Assembly (NCBI GenBank): GCA_021847345.1
Contig: JAJZTW010000001.1
Location: 1-64,000 of the forward strand
Length of the DNA: 64,000 nucleotides
Direction of reading: 5' to 3'
DNA from: Pseudomonadota bacterium
GTDB lineage: Bacteria; Pseudomonadota; Gammaproteobacteria; Burkholderiales; Burkholderiaceae_C
Numbering within the stretch: the stretch's first letter is position 1; every line of letters begins with the position of its first letter. Positions 8,288 through 59,019 of the stretch are shown piece after piece. A program made the position numbers and the translations under genes. The notes beneath the pieces were generated by a model. It saw only the letters and a program-made list of their open reading frames with translations, did no database searches and was not told the DNA's origin.

Positions 8288-10672
8288 ATGCCTAGCGCGC
8301 ACCGGGAAGGGCTCGTGGACAAGGCCACGGCATGGCTGCGCCGCGCGCTCGCCATCCCCGGCGAACAGGCCCTGGATACGCTGACCGGCGTGGCCTCGCG
8401 CAACGCCTTCGAACACAGGCTCGTGGAGCTCGCGGCGGAGTTGCCCGGCGACGCGTCGATGGCGGTGCTCGTGCTCGACGTGTACCGTTTCTTTCGCATC
8501 AACCAGACCTGGGGCCGGGCCGCCGGCGACGCCGTGCTGGTCGAGCTGGCACGGCGCCTGGGCGCGCTTGCCGGCAGCCAGATGGTGGCCCGCGTCGGCG
8601 CGGACTCCTTCGGCCTGCTGCTGCGCCACGACAACGGCGCCGACTGGCGCCGTGCCGTCGAGGCGATGATCAAGGCCCTGCGCGAGCCCTTTGCCGTGGG
8701 GCCCGGACGCACCCGCAAGCTGTCGGCCTCGGTGGGCTGCGCACTGTACCCGCAGGACACGCGCAGTGTCTCGAGCCTGCTGGGTCTGGCCGAGGCGGCC
8801 GTGTTCAACCGCGCCGCGCGCGAGCTGGCGCGCCAGACCGAAGGTCTCGACCCCTACGGCGCCGAGGCGGCCGACAAGATGGCCTGGCTGCAGCGTTTCC
8901 TGGGCGAACAGCTGCAAGGTCTCAACTCCCGGTTCCTGCAACGACTGTACGGCGACGGCGCGACGGCGCGCGCCAACTCCTCCGGCCTGCCGGTGCAGGC
9001 GGCCTTGCAACTGCTTCCCGACCTGGCGCGCTACGCCGAGCTGCTGCTGGCGCCGGGCTTGCAGCAGGCCACGCACCGCGAACAGGCAGCGCGCCTGGGG
9101 CGCCTGCAGGCCGCGCTCGGCCTGCACGCGCAGGTCGGCATGCGGGCCATGAGCGGCCTGCACCGGGAGGTCGCCGGCCTGGCGCAACGTATTCCGGCCC
9201 GCCTGAGCGAACGGCTTTTGTACTTCGGCACGCTGATGCGCCGCATGGAGGCGGACATCGCCTATCAGGACGAAGGCGCCGAGCAGCTGCGCCTGGAGCT
9301 GCTGCAAGGCCTGCATGAATCGACCCTGGCCATGCAGGCCACGCGGCGACGCACCGACCTGCTCGATGCCGTGGTGCGCGCCGTGCAGGCGTTGCCCTTC
9401 ATGGTGTCCTGCGCGGTCTACACGCAGGACGCCGAAGGCTCCTTCGTGCTCGAAGCCCAGGCACCCACCCATGGGGACTGGATGCAGGCCGCCGCCCATG
9501 CGCCGCAGGCTGCGGCCGGGGTCGCGGTGGACGACTCGCTGCAGCGCTGCTGGCTGAGCGCGAAGGTCGAAATGGCCCCCGACGTGCTGCGCCATGCCCG
9601 GCATGACCAGGCCTGGGCCCGACGCCTGCTGGAACACGACATTCGCAGCACGGCGGCGGTTCCGGTGGTCGACGGCGCGGGCCATGTGCTGGTCGTGCTC
9701 AAGCTGTACGGACGCCTGCCCGGACAGTTCGCCACCGCGCTGATGCGCCACGCGCTCGACTCGATGCGCTTCCTGATCGCCTCCGAGCTGGCACGGGTCG
9801 GCGAGGACGTGGCGCTGCCGGCGGTGGCCGCCGACGAGCGCACGCTGTGGCGCCAGCGCCTGTTCGGCGGGGGCCTGTGCATGCTGATGCAACCCATCGT
9901 CGACCTGCGGCAGGCGCGCTGCACCAGCGTCGAGGCCCTGGCCAGGCTGCAGCTCGATGCGCAGACCCTGGTGTCGCCTGCGCGCTTCCTGCCGATTCTC
10001 GGGCAGCAGGAACTCGACCGCCTGTTCCTGGAAGGCCTTCGCCTGTCACTGCAGGCACTTCGCGCCTGGGAACACGAGGGCATCTACCTGGACCTGTCGC
10101 TGAACCTGCCGCCGTCGTCGCTGCGCAACGCAGACTGCGCGTCGTGGGTACGCACGGCCTTGCTGCGTCAGCAGGTCGACCCACGGCGCCTGAGCCTGGA
10201 AATCCTCGAGGACCCGGACGTCGCCAGCCACGCGACCATGCGCGACACCACCGAACGCCTGCGCGAGATCGGAGTGCGTCTGGCGCTCGACGACCTGGGC
10301 GCCGGCTACAGCAGCCTGCTGCGGCTCAACAGCCTGCCGGTGGACATGGTCAAGGTGGACCAGGGCCTGGTGTATGGCATCGTCGCCAACAATCCGCGCG
10401 CGGTGCCCCTGGTGGCCGGGCTGGTGGACCTGGCGCGGCGCCTGGACCTGCGAATCACCATCGAGGGACTGGAAACCCAGATCCTGCTCGAGTACGCGCA
10501 GTACCTGCGGGCCGATTACGCGCAGGGGCACGCCATCGCGCGGCCGATGCCGGCGCAGCGCATCCCGGGCTGGCTGCGAAGCTGGCGCATGCCGCCGCTT
10601 TCGGGCATCGCGCCGTTCGCGTCGATGAGCATGCCGCCAGGCGCGGGACCGGGTCGCGATCATGTTTCATGA
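8288..10672 (+). CDS. Degenerate GGDEF - globin-like - GAF - EAL protein, probable c-di-GMP phosphodiesterase
   Basis: 794 residues. The N-terminal GGDEF fold (about 25-180) has G-A-D-S-F at 104-108 instead of G-G-D-E-F, so it should not synthesise c-di-GMP. Residues ~190-330 resemble a globin-coupled-sensor module, but the position matching the proximal His (in the L-x-A-A-L-G-L stretch) is Gln274. A GAF-like domain follows (~350-510). The EAL domain (~520-770) looks catalytically complete: E-A-L at 549-551, N in L-S-L-N-L, E in L-E-I-L-E-D, D-D-L-G-A-G-Y-S-S, K in V-K-V-D, E in T-I-E-G-L-E and Q in A-Q-G-H-A-I-A-R. It therefore probably degrades c-di-GMP. Its 3' end overlaps the next gene, suggesting co-translation. 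Confidence 0.85.
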   Translation: MPSAHREGLVDKATAWLRRALAIPGEQALDTLTGVASRNAFEHRLVELAAELPGDASMAVLVLDVYRFFRINQTWGRAAGDAVLVELARRLGALAGSQMVARVGADSFGLLLRHDNGADWRRAVEAMIKALREPFAVGPGRTRKLSASVGCALYPQDTRSVSSLLGLAEAAVFNRAARELARQTEGLDPYGAEAADKMAWLQRFLGEQLQGLNSRFLQRLYGDGATARANSSGLPVQAALQLLPDLARYAELLLAPGLQQATHREQAARLGRLQAALGLHAQVGMRAMSGLHREVAGLAQRIPARLSERLLYFGTLMRRMEADIAYQDEGAEQLRLELLQGLHESTLAMQATRRRTDLLDAVVRAVQALPFMVSCAVYTQDAEGSFVLEAQAPTHGDWMQAAAHAPQAAAGVAVDDSLQRCWLSAKVEMAPDVLRHARHDQAWARRLLEHDIRSTAAVPVVDGAGHVLVVLKLYGRLPGQFATALMRHALDSMRFLIASELARVGEDVALPAVAADERTLWRQRLFGGGLCMLMQPIVDLRQARCTSVEALARLQLDAQTLVSPARFLPILGQQELDRLFLEGLRLSLQALRAWEHEGIYLDLSLNLPPSSLRNADCASWVRTALLRQQVDPRRLSLEILEDPDVASHATMRDTTERLREIGVRLALDDLGAGYSSLLRLNSLPVDMVKVDQGLVYGIVANNPRAVPLVAGLVDLARRLDLRITIEGLETQILLEYAQYLRADYAQGHAIARPMPAQRIPGWLRSWRMPPLSGIAPFASMSMPPGAGPGRDHVS

Positions 10673-12536
10673 TGTCATTTCCGGGTCACGGTTGTCGGGT
10701 AGAAAGGCCGATTTCTGCCTCGCAGCTGCCATGGCCGCACTTGCCCCGCCCACTTCCGCATCCGCCACGGCCGAGGCCGATGCGTCGCGCCTGCTCGACG
10801 CCATCCTGCGCGAGCGGGATCTGCATGCGCTGTTCCAGCCACTGCTGGATCTGCGCAGCCGCGGCTTCCACGGCTTCGAGGCGCTGATCCGCGGCCCTGC
10901 CGGCGGCCCCCTCGAACGCCCGGACCAGCTGTTCGCCTGCGCCCGCCGGGATGGACGCCTGGGCGAGCTCGACCGTCTTTGCGCGCAGACCAGCATCGAG
11001 GCGTTCGCCCGTCAAGGCCTGCCGGGCAACCTGTTCATCAACGTCAGCGAGGCGCTGTTCGAGTCGGGCTGGTTCGCGCAGGAACCTACGCTGCGCTGGC
11101 TGCAGGAGCGCGGCCTGTCGCCGTCACGCCTGGTGCTCGAGCTTCTCGAATCGGACGCGCTTGCCGAGCATACCCACGCGTTCCAGGCCGCCAGGTTCCT
11201 GCGCGAACTCGGCTACGGGCTGGCGCTGGACGACCTGGGCCAGGGTTTCGGGCGCTTCGCGCTCTGGAAACGCCTGCGCCCGCGCTATCTCAAGATCGAC
11301 CGTGCCTACACCGCCGAGCTCGCCAGCGACCCGTTCAAGGCCGCCTTCGTGCGCTCGATGCTGGTGCTGGCCGAGGCCAGCCAGTCGGTGGTGGTGGCCG
11401 AAGGCGTGGAGTCCGAGCGCGATCTGCTGACCCTCCGGGAACTCGGAATCGGCATGGCGCAGGGCTATTTCATCGCGCGCCCGCACGCTCAACCCGCGCG
11501 CGAGCCCGCCGCGCACACGCGGGAAGTGCTCGGGCAGGCGCAACCCGCGCTGCACGCGCTGGCCAGCCGCGGCAGCATCGAGCAATCGGTGCTGGGGCTG
11601 GCGCGTCGGATCGCTCCGGTGCAGCCGAGCACCAAGCTCGACCAGGTGCTGCGCATGCTCGAGCAGGACCCCGACCTGACCTCGGTGCCGGTGGTCGACG
11701 ACCAGGGCCGCGCGCTGGGAATCATCAACCGCTATGTGGTCGCCGACCGGCTGTTCCGGCCGCATGTGCGCGACCTGTTCGGAAACAAGCCCTGCACCAT
11801 GGTCATGAGCAGCGACGTGCTGCGTCTGGATGCCAAGAGCAGCCTGCAGCAGGCCAGCGCCCTGATCGCCGACTCCAGCTACCGCCACGCCACCGAGGGG
11901 GTGCTGGTCAGCGACGCCGGCGCGTACCGCGGGCTGCTGCTGGTCGGAGACCTGCTGCGCCTGGTCACCGAGTTCCAGGTGCAGGCCGCGCGCTACGCCA
12001 ATCCGCTGACCCTGCTGCCGGGCAACGTGCCGATCAACGACTGCCTCGACCGCTGGCTGCACGAGGAACGAGGCTTCGCCGCGGCCTACGCCGACATCGA
12101 CCATTTCAAGCCCTTCAACGACAAGTTCGGCTACCGCATGGGCGACGAGATCATCCTGATGCTGGCCGACCTGCTGCGCGCCGGCCTGTCGCTGGGAGAG
12201 CACTTTCTGGGTCACATCGGAGGCGACGATTTCGTCGCGCTGTCCCGTGCCGACGACTGGGAGGGCGAGCTGCGCGCGGTGCTCGACGGTTTCGAGAAAG
12301 GGATGGCGCAGTTCTTCGAGCCGGCCGTGCTCGAGCAGGGGGGCTACTGGGCGGAGAACCGTCGCGGCGAGGCCATGTTCTTCCCGGTGCCGACCCTGTC
12401 GATCGGCGCCTTCCGCGTCGATCCGCGGCAGTTCGATTCGCACCGCGAGGTGGCCAACGTGCTGGCCGAGCTCAAGCGCGCGGCCAAGCGCCTGCCGGGC
12501 AATGCGCTGTTCGTGGATCGCAGGCGCCATGGCTGA
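10662..12536 (+). CDS. EAL - CBS pair - GGDEF protein
   Basis: 624 residues with the order EAL (about 45-280), two CBS motifs (about 310-440), then GGDEF (about 445-610). The EAL half keeps F-E-A-L-I-R-G (E73), N in F-I-N-V-S-E, L-E-L-L-E-S, D-D-L-G-Q-G, K in L-K-I-D and A-Q-G-Y-F-I-A-R-P, so phosphodiesterase activity is plausible. The GGDEF half reads G-G-D-D-F at 520-524, a conservative change that may keep or weaken cyclase activity, and no I-site is visible. CBS pairs usually bind adenosine nucleotides, so energy status may tune the output. The start at 10662 overlaps the preceding gene by 11 bp; an ATG at 10731 is an alternative. Known family layout; the signal is unknown. Confidence 0.85.
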   Translation: MFHDVISGSRLSGRKADFCLAAAMAALAPPTSASATAEADASRLLDAILRERDLHALFQPLLDLRSRGFHGFEALIRGPAGGPLERPDQLFACARRDGRLGELDRLCAQTSIEAFARQGLPGNLFINVSEALFESGWFAQEPTLRWLQERGLSPSRLVLELLESDALAEHTHAFQAARFLRELGYGLALDDLGQGFGRFALWKRLRPRYLKIDRAYTAELASDPFKAAFVRSMLVLAEASQSVVVAEGVESERDLLTLRELGIGMAQGYFIARPHAQPAREPAAHTREVLGQAQPALHALASRGSIEQSVLGLARRIAPVQPSTKLDQVLRMLEQDPDLTSVPVVDDQGRALGIINRYVVADRLFRPHVRDLFGNKPCTMVMSSDVLRLDAKSSLQQASALIADSSYRHATEGVLVSDAGAYRGLLLVGDLLRLVTEFQVQAARYANPLTLLPGNVPINDCLDRWLHEERGFAAAYADIDHFKPFNDKFGYRMGDEIILMLADLLRAGLSLGEHFLGHIGGDDFVALSRADDWEGELRAVLDGFEKGMAQFFEPAVLEQGGYWAENRRGEAMFFPVPTLSIGAFRVDPRQFDSHREVANVLAELKRAAKRLPGNALFVDRRRHG

Positions 12537-54882: not shown

Positions 54883-57800
54883 ATGCTGAACCTCGGGGAA
54901 ACCCTCGGCGCCAGCGGGCTGGCGGCCATCGGGCTGTTCTCGGCCGCCGCGGCCTTCGGCCTGGGGTATTCCCGGCGCCAGGCGCACCAGGTCTCGCGGC
55001 TGTCGGACTACCGCCTGCTGCTCGCGCACATTCACCGCATCGCCGCTGACGCAGCCGACGAGGCCGAATTCCTGCGCAGCGTCTGCGCCCTCACCGTGGA
55101 ACACGCCAAGGTCGACCTGACCTGGATCGGGCGCCCGGGCGCAGACGGCGTATTCGTCTACCTGGCCAGCGCGGGTCCACAACGGGCCTACCTGGACGAC
55201 ATCGTCATCGCCGCCGATCCGCAGCGACCGGAAGGCCAGGGCACCAGCGGCCGAGCCTGGCGCGATGCGCGCGCGTATTTCAATACAGCCTTCGGGCGCA
55301 ACCCGTCGCTGGCGCCGTGGGCGGCCCGCGCGGCGCGCTTCGGGCTGCGCACCAGCGCGGCCATTCCCGTGCTGCTGGACGGCGAGCCCTGGGCCGTGTT
55401 CACGCTGTATTCGACCGATCTGTACCCTTTCGATCCGACCTTGGTCGCGCTGGTCGACGACCTGGCGGCGGCGATCGCTGCCGGACTGTCGCGCATACGC
55501 CTGCTGCGTGACGAGCACGCGGCGCAGTCCCTCAACTCCGCGCTGCTCGAGAACATGGCGGCCGGCATCCAGGTCGTGCGCTACCCGCAGCGCTGGATCG
55601 AGCGCGCCAATGCGCGCATGCTGGACATGCTGGGCGTACGCGACATCGACGAACTCCGCGCCACATCGGCCCGGCATCACTACGACCCGAGCACCGTCGA
55701 ACGACTGGGCGCGCTGACTGCCCGCGTGCTGCGTGACGGCAACGGCGCGCTGCGCGACGTCGTGCTGCGACGCGAGGACGGGCAAAAGGTCTGGATGGAC
55801 GTCTCGGGTCGGCGCGTGGAACTCGACGACGGCGCGGCTCGCATCGTCTGGACCCACGTGGACGTCACCGAGCGCCGCGAGCAGGAACAGCGCCTGCGGC
55901 GCCTGGGGGCCATGCGCGAGGCCCTGCTCGACAACACCATCGTCGGCATCGATCTCGTGCAGTATCCGGAGCGCCGGGTCATCGAGGCGAACGCGGCGCT
56001 GGTGCACATCATGGGCTACGAATCGCGCGAGCAACTGCTCGGCATGGATGCGCGCAAGCTCTACCCCAACCCCGAGGTGTCGCAGCGCATGGCGCAGCTG
56101 GCCGAGAAGGTGCTGCGCGAAGGCAGCGGCGAACTCGGAAACGTGCAGGTACGCAGGCGCGACGGTTCCCTCGCCCGCCTGGACCTGCACGGCAAGCGCC
56201 TGCAAAGCGAGGACACGGCCAATCCGGTGATCGTGTGGACCTCGGTCGATGCCACGCGCAAGTACGAACTGGAAGCCGAGCTGCATCGCCAGGCGCATTA
56301 CGACGAGCTCACCGACCTGCCCAACCGGCGCGCGTTGCGAGAGCGCCTGCGCGGCTCGATCCTGCGCGCCCAGGCCGGCGGCGGGGCGCTGGCCGTCGGC
56401 GTGCTGGACCTCGATGATTTCAAGCCGGTCAACGACCGCTACGGCCATGTGGTCGGCGATCAGCTGCTGCGCGACATCGTGCTGCGGCTTCGCGGCGCGC
56501 TGCATCCGGGGGACATGCTGGCTCGAATCGGCGGCGACGAATTCGTGCTTCTGCTGGACGACCTGCCGGCGCGCATCGAGCAGCCCGGCCTCGACACACG
56601 CCTGCATCCCATGCACCTGGCCATGCAGCAGGCGCTGCCCGTGGGCGACCAGGACAGCGTGCGCATCGGCATGTCGATGGGCCTGGCCCTGTATCCGCAC
56701 GATGCCACGGAAGCCGACGCACTTCTGCGCGAGGCCGATGCGGCCATGTACCAGGTCAAGGCGCGCAAGGCGACGCGGGCGTCCTGGTGGCAACGCGCCG
56801 GCACGCAGGTGCCCGCAGCGGACGATGACGACGAGATCGACCCGTTCGGCGCGGGCGCGGCGCAGTTGCTGGACAGCTTCCAGGAACAGATCCGCGAGGT
56901 CACGCGCCAGTACGCCGCAGAGTTCGACCGCCGCGTGCTCGGCATGCCCGGCGCCCAGGGCATCCTCGACTGCCTGCCGCTGGTCGAGCGCGAACAGCTC
57001 AAGCGCAAGCTCGCCGAGCATCTGCTGCAGGGCCTGTCGCCGGCGGCCCGCGCCGACGAATGCGAACGGCGCGCGCTGCACGTCGGGCAGACCCACGCGC
57101 TGGTCGGGCTGTCCGCGGGCACGGTCAGCCGCACCCTCAACGAGTACCGCTCGATGCTGCGCGATCGCGTGCAGACCCTGAGCCTGTCGCGGCGCGAGCG
57201 CACCCGCGTGATGCAGGTGGCCAATGCCCGCATGCAGCTGGAACTGCAATGCGAACTCACGCGCATGCAGGAGGTGTACGACTCGTACAACGAACACCTG
57301 GCGCGCGCGTTGCCGGACTCGACGACCACCTGGGCCAGCCTGGTCCGCGGCGAGCTCGACGCACTGTGCCGGCTTGCCGGTCTGCGCGCGGTATTCGTCA
57401 TGCGCCTGTCTCCGGACGGGCGCTTTTTCGCCGAGTTCAGCGCCGGCGACGGCATGCGCATGCTCGATCGCGCGCTGCAGGACCCGCAACTGCAGCCCAA
57501 TCTGGATTCGCGCCAGCCCTGCGGCCAGGGCCTTGTCGCGCAGGCCTGGCGCACCGGAGAGATCCAGCGCAGCGATGCCGCGCTGCTCGACGCGCGCCTG
57601 CACTCGTGGCTGCCGGCCCTGCGCGATGCCGCCGTGCAGAGCGCCGTCGCGCTTCCCATCAAGGATGCGCGCAACAGCTTCGTGCTGGCCCTGTACGGCG
57701 CCTATCCGCACCAGTTCGCAAGCGGCTGGGCCTGCACCTTCATCGCCTCGCTGCGCACGCGCTGGGAACGCGTGGCACAGGCCTCGCGCAGCGTGTTCAC

Positions 57801-58851
57801 GCCGCTGCTGTGGCAGGAGGCCGCGGAGTACCGGCGCCTGCTCCACTCGGGAGGCCTGGACATGCATGCGCAGCCGGTGCTCGACACGCAGACCGGGCGC
57901 GTGCACAAGGTCGAGATGCTGGCGCGCCTGCGCGATGCCGACCAGCGCATGATCCCGCCGGCCCGCTTCCTGCCGGCCTTCGACGACACCGACACGCACA
58001 CGCTGTTCCGCCTCGGCCTCGAGCAGACCCTGCAGGCGCAGGAGCGCTGGCGCGCGCGCGGCCTGGCGCTGGAGGTCTCGCTCAACGTCGCGCCGGCCAC
58101 GTTGCTGCACGCGGACATGGTTCACTGGGTGGACCAGGCGCTGCGCCGCCACGGCAGCCCGCCGGCGAGCCTGACCCTGGAGATCCTGGAATCCCAGGAA
58201 TTCCTCGACGAGCGCCAGGCCCAGGCGGTGCACCGGCTGGCCGCGCTTGGCGTGAAACTCGCGATCGACGACCTGGGTGCAGGCTACAGCAGCCTCAAGC
58301 GCCTGGTGAACCTGCCCTTCGACGTGGTCAAGATCGACCAGGCGCTGCTGCGCGAACTCAACGCCGACCCGGCCAAGGTGCTCGGCCTGGTCAGCGCGAT
58401 CATCCGCATCGGCGAGGACCTCGGGCGCACCGTGGTGGTCGAGGGCGTGGAAGACGCTCCCGCGCTCGAAGCCATGATGATCATCGGCGCGCGCCACGTG
58501 CAAGGCTACGCGGTGGCGCGCCCGATGCCGCTGGCCGACATCGACGCCTGGCTGGGCGGCTTCGCCAGCCCGCGCCCGCTGGACGGCGCGCTGCAAAGCC
58601 TGCTCGGCGCCTTCGCCTGGCACTGGGTGCACCTGAGGCGCGAGCTGCCGGGCGGCCCCGAGTTCGCCGCGCCACGCCTGGATCCGCTGCGCGAGTACCT
58701 GCGCCGCTGCCATGCCCAGGACACGGAACTTCTCGACGCCGTTCAGCGCTGCGCCGAGCTCGTCGGACCACGCGAGGCGGCATGCCGCGAAGTGCTGCAG
58801 CTGCTCCAGCTGCGCCTGCGAGGCGCCCCGCAGGCCGCGCGCGCGGCCTGA
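54883..58851 (+). CDS. GAF - PAS - PAS - GGDEF - globin-like - GAF - EAL bifunctional c-di-GMP protein
   Basis: 1322 residues. A single N-terminal hydrophobic segment (about 10-28) is followed by GAF (~30-205), two PAS domains (~215-330, ~345-455) and GGDEF (~460-620) with G-G-D-E-F at 550-554. The I-site Arg is replaced (H-P-G-D), so feedback inhibition is unlikely. Residues ~650-790 look like a globin-coupled-sensor domain with H738 in T-H-A-L-V-G-L as candidate proximal haem ligand. A second GAF (~800-960) precedes an EAL domain (~985-1240) whose signature is E-M-L (1011-1013), the other catalytic residues being present (D-D-L-G-A-G-Y-S-S, V-K-I-D, V-Q-G-Y-A-V-A-R). About 75 helical residues follow the EAL. 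Probably a gas- or redox-responsive switch. Confidence 0.85.
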   Translation: MLNLGETLGASGLAAIGLFSAAAAFGLGYSRRQAHQVSRLSDYRLLLAHIHRIAADAADEAEFLRSVCALTVEHAKVDLTWIGRPGADGVFVYLASAGPQRAYLDDIVIAADPQRPEGQGTSGRAWRDARAYFNTAFGRNPSLAPWAARAARFGLRTSAAIPVLLDGEPWAVFTLYSTDLYPFDPTLVALVDDLAAAIAAGLSRIRLLRDEHAAQSLNSALLENMAAGIQVVRYPQRWIERANARMLDMLGVRDIDELRATSARHHYDPSTVERLGALTARVLRDGNGALRDVVLRREDGQKVWMDVSGRRVELDDGAARIVWTHVDVTERREQEQRLRRLGAMREALLDNTIVGIDLVQYPERRVIEANAALVHIMGYESREQLLGMDARKLYPNPEVSQRMAQLAEKVLREGSGELGNVQVRRRDGSLARLDLHGKRLQSEDTANPVIVWTSVDATRKYELEAELHRQAHYDELTDLPNRRALRERLRGSILRAQAGGGALAVGVLDLDDFKPVNDRYGHVVGDQLLRDIVLRLRGALHPGDMLARIGGDEFVLLLDDLPARIEQPGLDTRLHPMHLAMQQALPVGDQDSVRIGMSMGLALYPHDATEADALLREADAAMYQVKARKATRASWWQRAGTQVPAADDDDEIDPFGAGAAQLLDSFQEQIREVTRQYAAEFDRRVLGMPGAQGILDCLPLVEREQLKRKLAEHLLQGLSPAARADECERRALHVGQTHALVGLSAGTVSRTLNEYRSMLRDRVQTLSLSRRERTRVMQVANARMQLELQCELTRMQEVYDSYNEHLARALPDSTTTWASLVRGELDALCRLAGLRAVFVMRLSPDGRFFAEFSAGDGMRMLDRALQDPQLQPNLDSRQPCGQGLVAQAWRTGEIQRSDAALLDARLHSWLPALRDAAVQSAVALPIKDARNSFVLALYGAYPHQFASGWACTFIASLRTRWERVAQASRSVFTPLLWQEAAEYRRLLHSGGLDMHAQPVLDTQTGRVHKVEMLARLRDADQRMIPPARFLPAFDDTDTHTLFRLGLEQTLQAQERWRARGLALEVSLNVAPATLLHADMVHWVDQALRRHGSPPASLTLEILESQEFLDERQAQAVHRLAALGVKLAIDDLGAGYSSLKRLVNLPFDVVKIDQALLRELNADPAKVLGLVSAIIRIGEDLGRTVVVEGVEDAPALEAMMIIGARHVQGYAVARPMPLADIDAWLGGFASPRPLDGALQSLLGAFAWHWVHLRRELPGGPEFAAPRLDPLREYLRRCHAQDTELLDAVQRCAELVGPREAACREVLQLLQLRLRGAPQAARAA

Positions 58852-58943: not shown

Positions 58944-59019
58944 TGGCGCGCCCGGCGGGGATCGAACCCACGACCCTCGGCTTCGGAGGCCGATACTCTA
59001 TCCACTGAGCTACGGGCGC
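58944..59019 (-). tRNA. tRNA-Arg (anticodon CCG), CCA encoded
   Basis: The minus strand folds as a complete cloverleaf of 76 nt: acceptor GCGCCCG/CGGGCGC with discriminator G and an encoded CCA, D-arm GCTC...GAGT, anticodon stem TCGGC/GCCGA with loop CTCCGAA (anticodon CCG), and the T-loop TTCGATC. It reads CGG arginine codons, frequent in this GC-rich genome. It is an isolated tRNA gene next to no integrase, so no island boundary is suggested. Confidence 0.96.

Follow-up and report, generated by a model that had tools for sequence, protein, structure and literature searches.

A 64,000-nucleotide stretch of DNA from a Burkholderiaceae_C bacterium, referred to below as the window, encodes two proteins, P0001 and P0002, in each of which an all-helical segment lies between a GGDEF domain and a GAF-EAL pair, as a preliminary description of the DNA had located them. 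P0001 is probably a cyclic di-GMP (c-di-GMP) phosphodiesterase in which the regulatory half is formed by a sensor globin that has ceased to bind haem, as judged from sequence comparison and a predicted structure. We favour a haem-free globin input for this enzyme because the proximal His and the distal Tyr are lost throughout its ortholog group, the GGDEF motif is degenerate, the EAL signature is intact and the ratio of nonsynonymous to synonymous substitution rates (dN/dS) of the globin is 0.20. The two proteins are not an isolated oddity: the genome encodes ten such proteins, and matches occur genus-wide. Their parts are as follows.

8288-10672, plus strand: P0001, 794 residues; degenerate GGDEF, putatively haem-less globin, GAF, EAL
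8369-8806, plus strand: GGDEF domain of P0001, with the degenerate motif GADSF
8849-9313, plus strand: globin domain of P0001, residues 188-342; F8 Gln274, B10 Leu217, E11 Leu246, E14 Tyr249
9350-9763, plus strand: GAF domain of P0001
9851-10546, plus strand: EAL domain of P0001; all checked signature residues present
54883-58851, plus strand: P0002, 1322 residues; GAF-PAS-PAS-GGDEF-globin-GAF-EAL (the second GAF assigned by an in-house profile)
56839-57300, plus strand: globin domain of P0002, residues 653-806; F8 His738, B10 Asp682, E11 Leu710, E14 His713

Sensor globins in P0001 and P0002

Both segments are globins of the globin-coupled-sensor type, as had been proposed, and they reach that assignment by different routes: P0002 was matched by a profile search, P0001 through hhalign comparison with its family and a predicted structure. 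At E 1.8e-4 and 22 bits the P0002 segment lies just under the curated cut-off of 25 for the Protoglobin profile PF11563 (E 0.0044 for the whole protein), and it aligns with relatives that pass this cut-off. Searches of Pfam, NCBIfam and PDB sequences with P0001, its segment or its ortholog group found no globin (in one search, among the best 25 of 27 families), and the link from P0001 to the globins is transitive, via the family to which it belongs. The alignment of the P0001 ortholog group with the His-bearing family globins runs from one end to the other (E 3.7e-14, score 84.8); 100 column shuffles score no higher than 24.2, and reversal gives 13.75. The His-bearing relatives placed in alignment A6 (26 of the 76 available) all match PF11563 at E 0.01 or better. 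The AlphaFold2 model of the P0001 globin domain, for its part, retrieves sensor globins among PDB structures. Gln274 of P0001 and His738 of P0002 fall in one alignment column, that of the proximal His123 of HemAT (PDB 1OR4; the HemAT positions His123 and Tyr70 were counted in the printed alignment with 1OR4), in agreement with the earlier pairing of the two residues; the R-x-L/V-G motif cited alongside it fits P0001 but does not hold letter for letter in P0002. P0001 would accordingly present a globin fold deprived of its haem-ligand residue at the proximal (F8) position, resembling the RsbR-type non-haem sensor globins.

At the two ends of the P0001 chain the enzymatic domains differ in their state of preservation. 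GADSF stands in place of the GG(D/E)EF diguanylate cyclase motif, and the EAL domain retains all the residues checked of the signature expected of an active phosphodiesterase, which comprises E(xL), N, E, DD, K, E and Q. No STAS output of the RsbR type is present in P0001, whose output is GAF-EAL.

P0002, which shares 31% identity with P0001 over most of the latter, keeps the proximal His738 and lacks the distal B10 Tyr (the equivalent of HemAT Tyr70), with Asp682 in its stead. The proposal that it senses O2, NO or CO through haem is not supported as it was stated: O2 sensing is less sure because the usual distal residues are replaced (Asp682, Leu710), and the retained His738 would not by itself settle which ligand, or even whether haem, is bound. 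Less than 100 bases past the P0002 gene lies a tRNA-Arg (CCG) gene at 58944-59019 on the minus strand, a possible island edge.

Family size and loss of the haem ligand

Ten proteins of the globin family are encoded in G000, the genome of the window (3.66 Mb, 93% complete), and 9 of its 30 EAL matches fall within them. A search with the P0002 segment found nine places at E <1e-4, P0002 included and P0001 not among them, and a profile (A1) built from these nine plus P0001 recovers all ten at E 3.4e-56 to 4.0e-43, as expected for its own members. A weak tenth match of the segment search, on contig C112, offered only a 126-residue frame with no visible likeness and was dropped. A separate search of this genome with PF11563 put six places above the curated cut-off, namely five of the ten (on C9, C22, C77, C86 and C104) and one on C5, the latter a short globin-GGDEF protein of another type. 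All 28 genomes of the genus that were searched have matches, 2 to 20 each, while a family survey at E 1e-10 gave matches in at least 15 of 399 genomes (5 of 141 genera) and a phylum sample in at least 1 of 398, that one being the window's own; these are lower bounds because only 9 candidates per genome were scored, at a strict E-value. Plasmids contained nothing close to the P0002 gene and, by tblastn, no match of the C86 protein's globin; viral contigs contained no relative of alignment A4.

The short globin-GGDEF type is represented by L165 (G000, C5:41985-42404), L099, L111, L122, L139, L140, L141 and L151, with frames of 338-401 residues (529 in L122). Their F8 column holds Tyr or Phe (GDLYYRWGL, GQIFHRWGL), and among the copies read some have a degenerate GGDEF. 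A Pfam match is no proof of a haem ligand, because L165 itself passes the Protoglobin cut-off with 33 bits.

For a census of haem-ligand residues we used eight genomes of the source genus, G000 and seven congeners. The congeners yielded 85 matches, reduced to 81 domains, apparently by collapsing three identical within-genome copies and omitting one 130-residue frame; together with the ten from G000 these make 91, or 84 after removal of seven short Glob-GGDEF domains of the other type. At F8, 68 of the 84 domains have His and 16 another residue (Gln in 7, Leu in 5, Arg in 3, Asn in 1); in G000, F8 His is found in six of the ten, P0002 included. Of the distal residues, B10 Tyr is present in 46 of 68 His-bearing domains vs 2 of 16 His-less ones (Fisher p 1e-4; once kinship is considered, the association of Tyr with His depends on two or three of six independent pairs and lacks significance), and E11 Gln in 56 of 68 vs 2 of 16. 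Neither residue is found in 10 of the 68 His-bearing domains (P0002 among them, and one a partial domain with gaps at these positions) as against 13 of the 16 His-less, and His, Tyr and Gln occur together in 44 of the 68. In the L014 globin (G000, C96) the F8 Arg is followed by Cys (GRVRCLMGL) and the stretch before the E helix is shortened; L159, from the census genome G217, has the same Arg-Cys pair.

A maximum-likelihood tree of 93 globin-GAF segments, that is, the 84 census domains plus nine from genomes of three other genera, all nine His-bearing, requires at least seven changes between His and non-His. A single clade for the 16 His-less domains is rejected (p 4e-54, for a group chosen by the trait itself). 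Five gap-rich rows, of which two are His-less, were absent from the first tree and present in later ones. Parsimony alone gives no direction to the His changes; since the wider family has His, we read them as losses. Outside the genus, F8 His is found in all 30 control loci, the best-scoring PF11563 loci of a 299-genome phylum sample and as such biased towards His-bearing proteins of standard layout. Together these comparisons suggest that the haem-ligand His was lost several times independently within the genus.

The P0001 ortholog group shows what accompanies this loss. An ortholog is present in five of the eight census genomes, with Gln at F8 in two and Leu in three; none has His, and across the group it is missing from P0001 and all eight other members seen. 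All five have Leu at B10 and keep the EAL signature, and their GGDEF motif is replaced by GADS plus a fifth residue (F, F, V, I or M). The motif survives in the nine remaining His-less proteins that carry a GGDEF domain ahead of the globin, five His-bearing proteins have GGDEL in its place, and the EAL signature is complete in all 16 His-less proteins. Pairwise dN/dS of the globins between G000 and G217 (a genome with 6% reported contamination) is 0.20 for P0001 and 0.29, 0.27 and 0.22 for three other His-less proteins, and 0.09, 0.06, 0.36, 0.30 and 0.31 for five His-bearing ones, P0002 having 0.09. The His-less proteins thus look intact and under selection.

That the globin sits mid-chain, behind a GGDEF domain rather than at the N terminus in both P0001 and P0002, had been called unusual. 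This holds against the phylum sample, where none of the 30 controls has a GGDEF ahead of the globin and 29 of them have it within 81 residues of the frame start; in this genus it is the rule, with a preceding GGDEF in 61 of 84 domains. The remaining 23 have none by the in-house profiles of GGDEF, EAL, GAF and PAS used for the census layouts, and at least two of these have a long unassigned stretch ahead of the globin. A quick tree places three layout changes. Most simply, globin-GAF-EAL would be the working module, in which the globin lies, as usual, immediately ahead of its output, and the GGDEF is placed in front. One further layout, PAS-GGDEF-globin-GAF with no EAL and a globin with His, Tyr and Gln, is seen in L009 (G000, C77) and L133 (G217).

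The surroundings of P0001 in the window comprise two further genes of c-di-GMP type.

10662-12536, plus strand: EAL-CBS-GGDEF protein; longest frame overlaps the end of P0001
5471-7777, minus strand: divergent GAF-GGDEF protein

P0001 and the downstream gene likely form an operon. Seven metagenome-assembled genomes, besides Thiomonas sp. FB-6, supply the named P0001 orthologs, and in six of these eight loci the order is kept as a divergent gene of GAF-GGDEF type, the ortholog, then an EAL-GGDEF gene (the CBS between the EAL and GGDEF of this neighbour was seen in the window); the exceptions are L175, with neither neighbour, and L181, which is cut short. Directly upstream of the ortholog, on the same strand, L178, L179 (Thiomonas sp. 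FB-6) and L181 carry a His-bearing member of the globin family. This upstream frame reads GAF-PAS-GGDEF-globin-GAF-EAL with F8 His and B10 Tyr kept, and the ortholog's open frame opens 45 to 80 bases past its end, measured between frame limits and not start codons.

A probable haem-free input and its alternatives

Sensor globins are known dimers, and the globin of P0001 would keep dimerising in the same way, relaying a signal other than bound O2 through the GAF domain to the EAL domain, with the degenerate GGDEF serving as a binding or dimer module. The signal might be pH or redox, a small hydrophobic molecule bound as ligand, or the state in which a globin partner finds itself; our leading ideas are the hydrophobic ligand and a partner that carries haem. 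P0002, with its altered distal pocket, and the other His-bearing members would be the haem-type counterparts. The preliminary description had proposed that the His-less paralogue became either haem-free or partner-dependent, and the two halves of this proposal fare unequally: the ligand is indeed lost in P0001 and eight group members, and dependence on a partner is only hinted at, by tandems in three of the eight named loci. Such dependence would mean that the haem-less globin and a haem-bearing paralogue make a mixed dimer that senses gas, with P0001 giving the phosphodiesterase half. The tandems in L178, L179 and L181 with a His-bearing, B10-Tyr paralogue speak for this arrangement, as do the ten family globins in one genome and the dimerisation of sensor globins, yet no globin gene lies directly ahead of the ortholog in the window or in L174, L175, L176, L177 and L180, and we regard the mixed dimer as unlikely.

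Another reading is that P0001 still holds haem through some other ligand, for instance His263, eleven residues before the F8 column and invariant in nine aligned P0001-group sequences. Family-wide that column has His in 38 of 93 rows, and since only 6 of these lack the F8 His it is no substitute for the lost ligand; we rejected His263 as a relocated ligand, its column being common across the family and mostly occupied alongside F8 His, and with the distal Tyr and Gln gone from P0001 as well, haem binding by another residue is very improbable. Decay of the His-less globins into remnants might be read from the joint alteration of F8, B10 and E11 and from the long branch to the P0001 group in the first tree, but their dN/dS of 0.20-0.29 falls inside the His-bearing range of 0.06-0.36, and the maintenance of the ortholog in five of eight genomes, of the EAL signature in 16 of 16 and of the neighbours in six of eight named loci makes decay scarcely credible. 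As for P0002, it may be no gas sensor either, and given its B10 Asp and E11 Leu could instead be a haem protein of redox or other non-gas function, or apo. Its place among the 10 of 68 His-bearing domains that have neither distal residue, where 44 keep the full set, favours this, whereas the retention of His738 and of the E14 His, the match of the segment to Protoglobin and the strong conservation of the globin between the two genomes compared (dN/dS 0.09) do not; we consider it a genuine possibility, although not the expected outcome. For P0001, the preferred reading remains a phosphodiesterase with a putatively haem-free globin input.

Known parallels and implications

PDB entry 3ZTA, titled 'The bacterial stressosome: a modular system that has been adapted to control secondary messenger signaling', appears among the matches of the P0001 model and is presumably a globin-like domain linked to a diguanylate cyclase. 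It resembles P0001 in tying a sensor to a second messenger, and differs in doing so via a stressosome and not within one GGDEF-GAF-EAL chain. Entries 3PMC and 3PMD, which we take to be haem-free sensor domains, have outputs other than EAL, as does RsbR, whereas here the loss of His recurs inside the c-di-GMP enzyme family of one genus. RsbR nevertheless offers, by analogy, a known parallel for a haem-free P0001 globin: the Bacillus protein (PDB 2BNL) has Ala74 in place of the F8 His and binds no haem, according to a passage of PMC4476040. Non-haem RsbR globins keep the fold and one RsbR relative was crystallised with a fatty acid, their signals being unknown in the account excerpted from PMC4976288; haem-free sensor globins have so far been encountered mainly in stressosomes (see also that excerpt).

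Globin-coupled sensors acting on c-di-GMP include DgcO (DosC/YddV), BpeGReg, AvGReg and PccGCS, with Chp1 as a phosphodiesterase (table in PMC8846402). They share with the present family the second messenger and, judged from the sequence profile and the predicted fold, the type of globin; they bind haem via His and, according to PMC8846402, often carry the sensor N-terminally, whereas here the globin follows GGDEF and precedes GAF-EAL, and His is missing in 16 of 84. Among the literature matches listed, no title or abstract opening describes a globin-coupled phosphodiesterase without a haem ligand. Acidithiobacillus is another acid-mine lineage rich in proteins combining a globin with GGDEF-EAL, with Protoglobin in 80 of 387 GGDEF-EAL proteins (Table 2 of PMC6416229, part of that paper); its named example, Protoglobin-GGDEF-EAL-CZB, has the globin first, a comparison made by the description in that part, where ligand residues do not come up. 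In the same or a neighbouring genus, the Thiomonas island ThGEI-L carries many GGDEF and EAL genes, of which some are duplicated in better-biofilm strains, c-di-GMP gene expansion being there tied to biofilm (as given in a section of PMC2829063); a listing of words in that paper shows none starting with globin or protoglobin.

A wider picture, tentative and short of probable, is that much of the c-di-GMP network of this genus is wired through sensor globins whose haem ligand was discarded several times while the EAL output was kept, turning O2 sensors into haem-free sensors or silent halves of mixed globin pairs. What emerges is a large signalling-enzyme family in acid-mine bacteria of Thiomonas type, about a fifth of whose examined globins lack the haem His, and in which a Protoglobin annotation does not equate to a gas sensor. 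As His-bearing and His-less members with a common enzymatic output occur in one cell, haem-free globin sensing becomes testable by c-di-GMP hydrolysis, an assay that would replace work on a megadalton complex. If the reading of P0001 proposed here is true, its group would represent a conserved class of haem-free globin-coupled phosphodiesterase.
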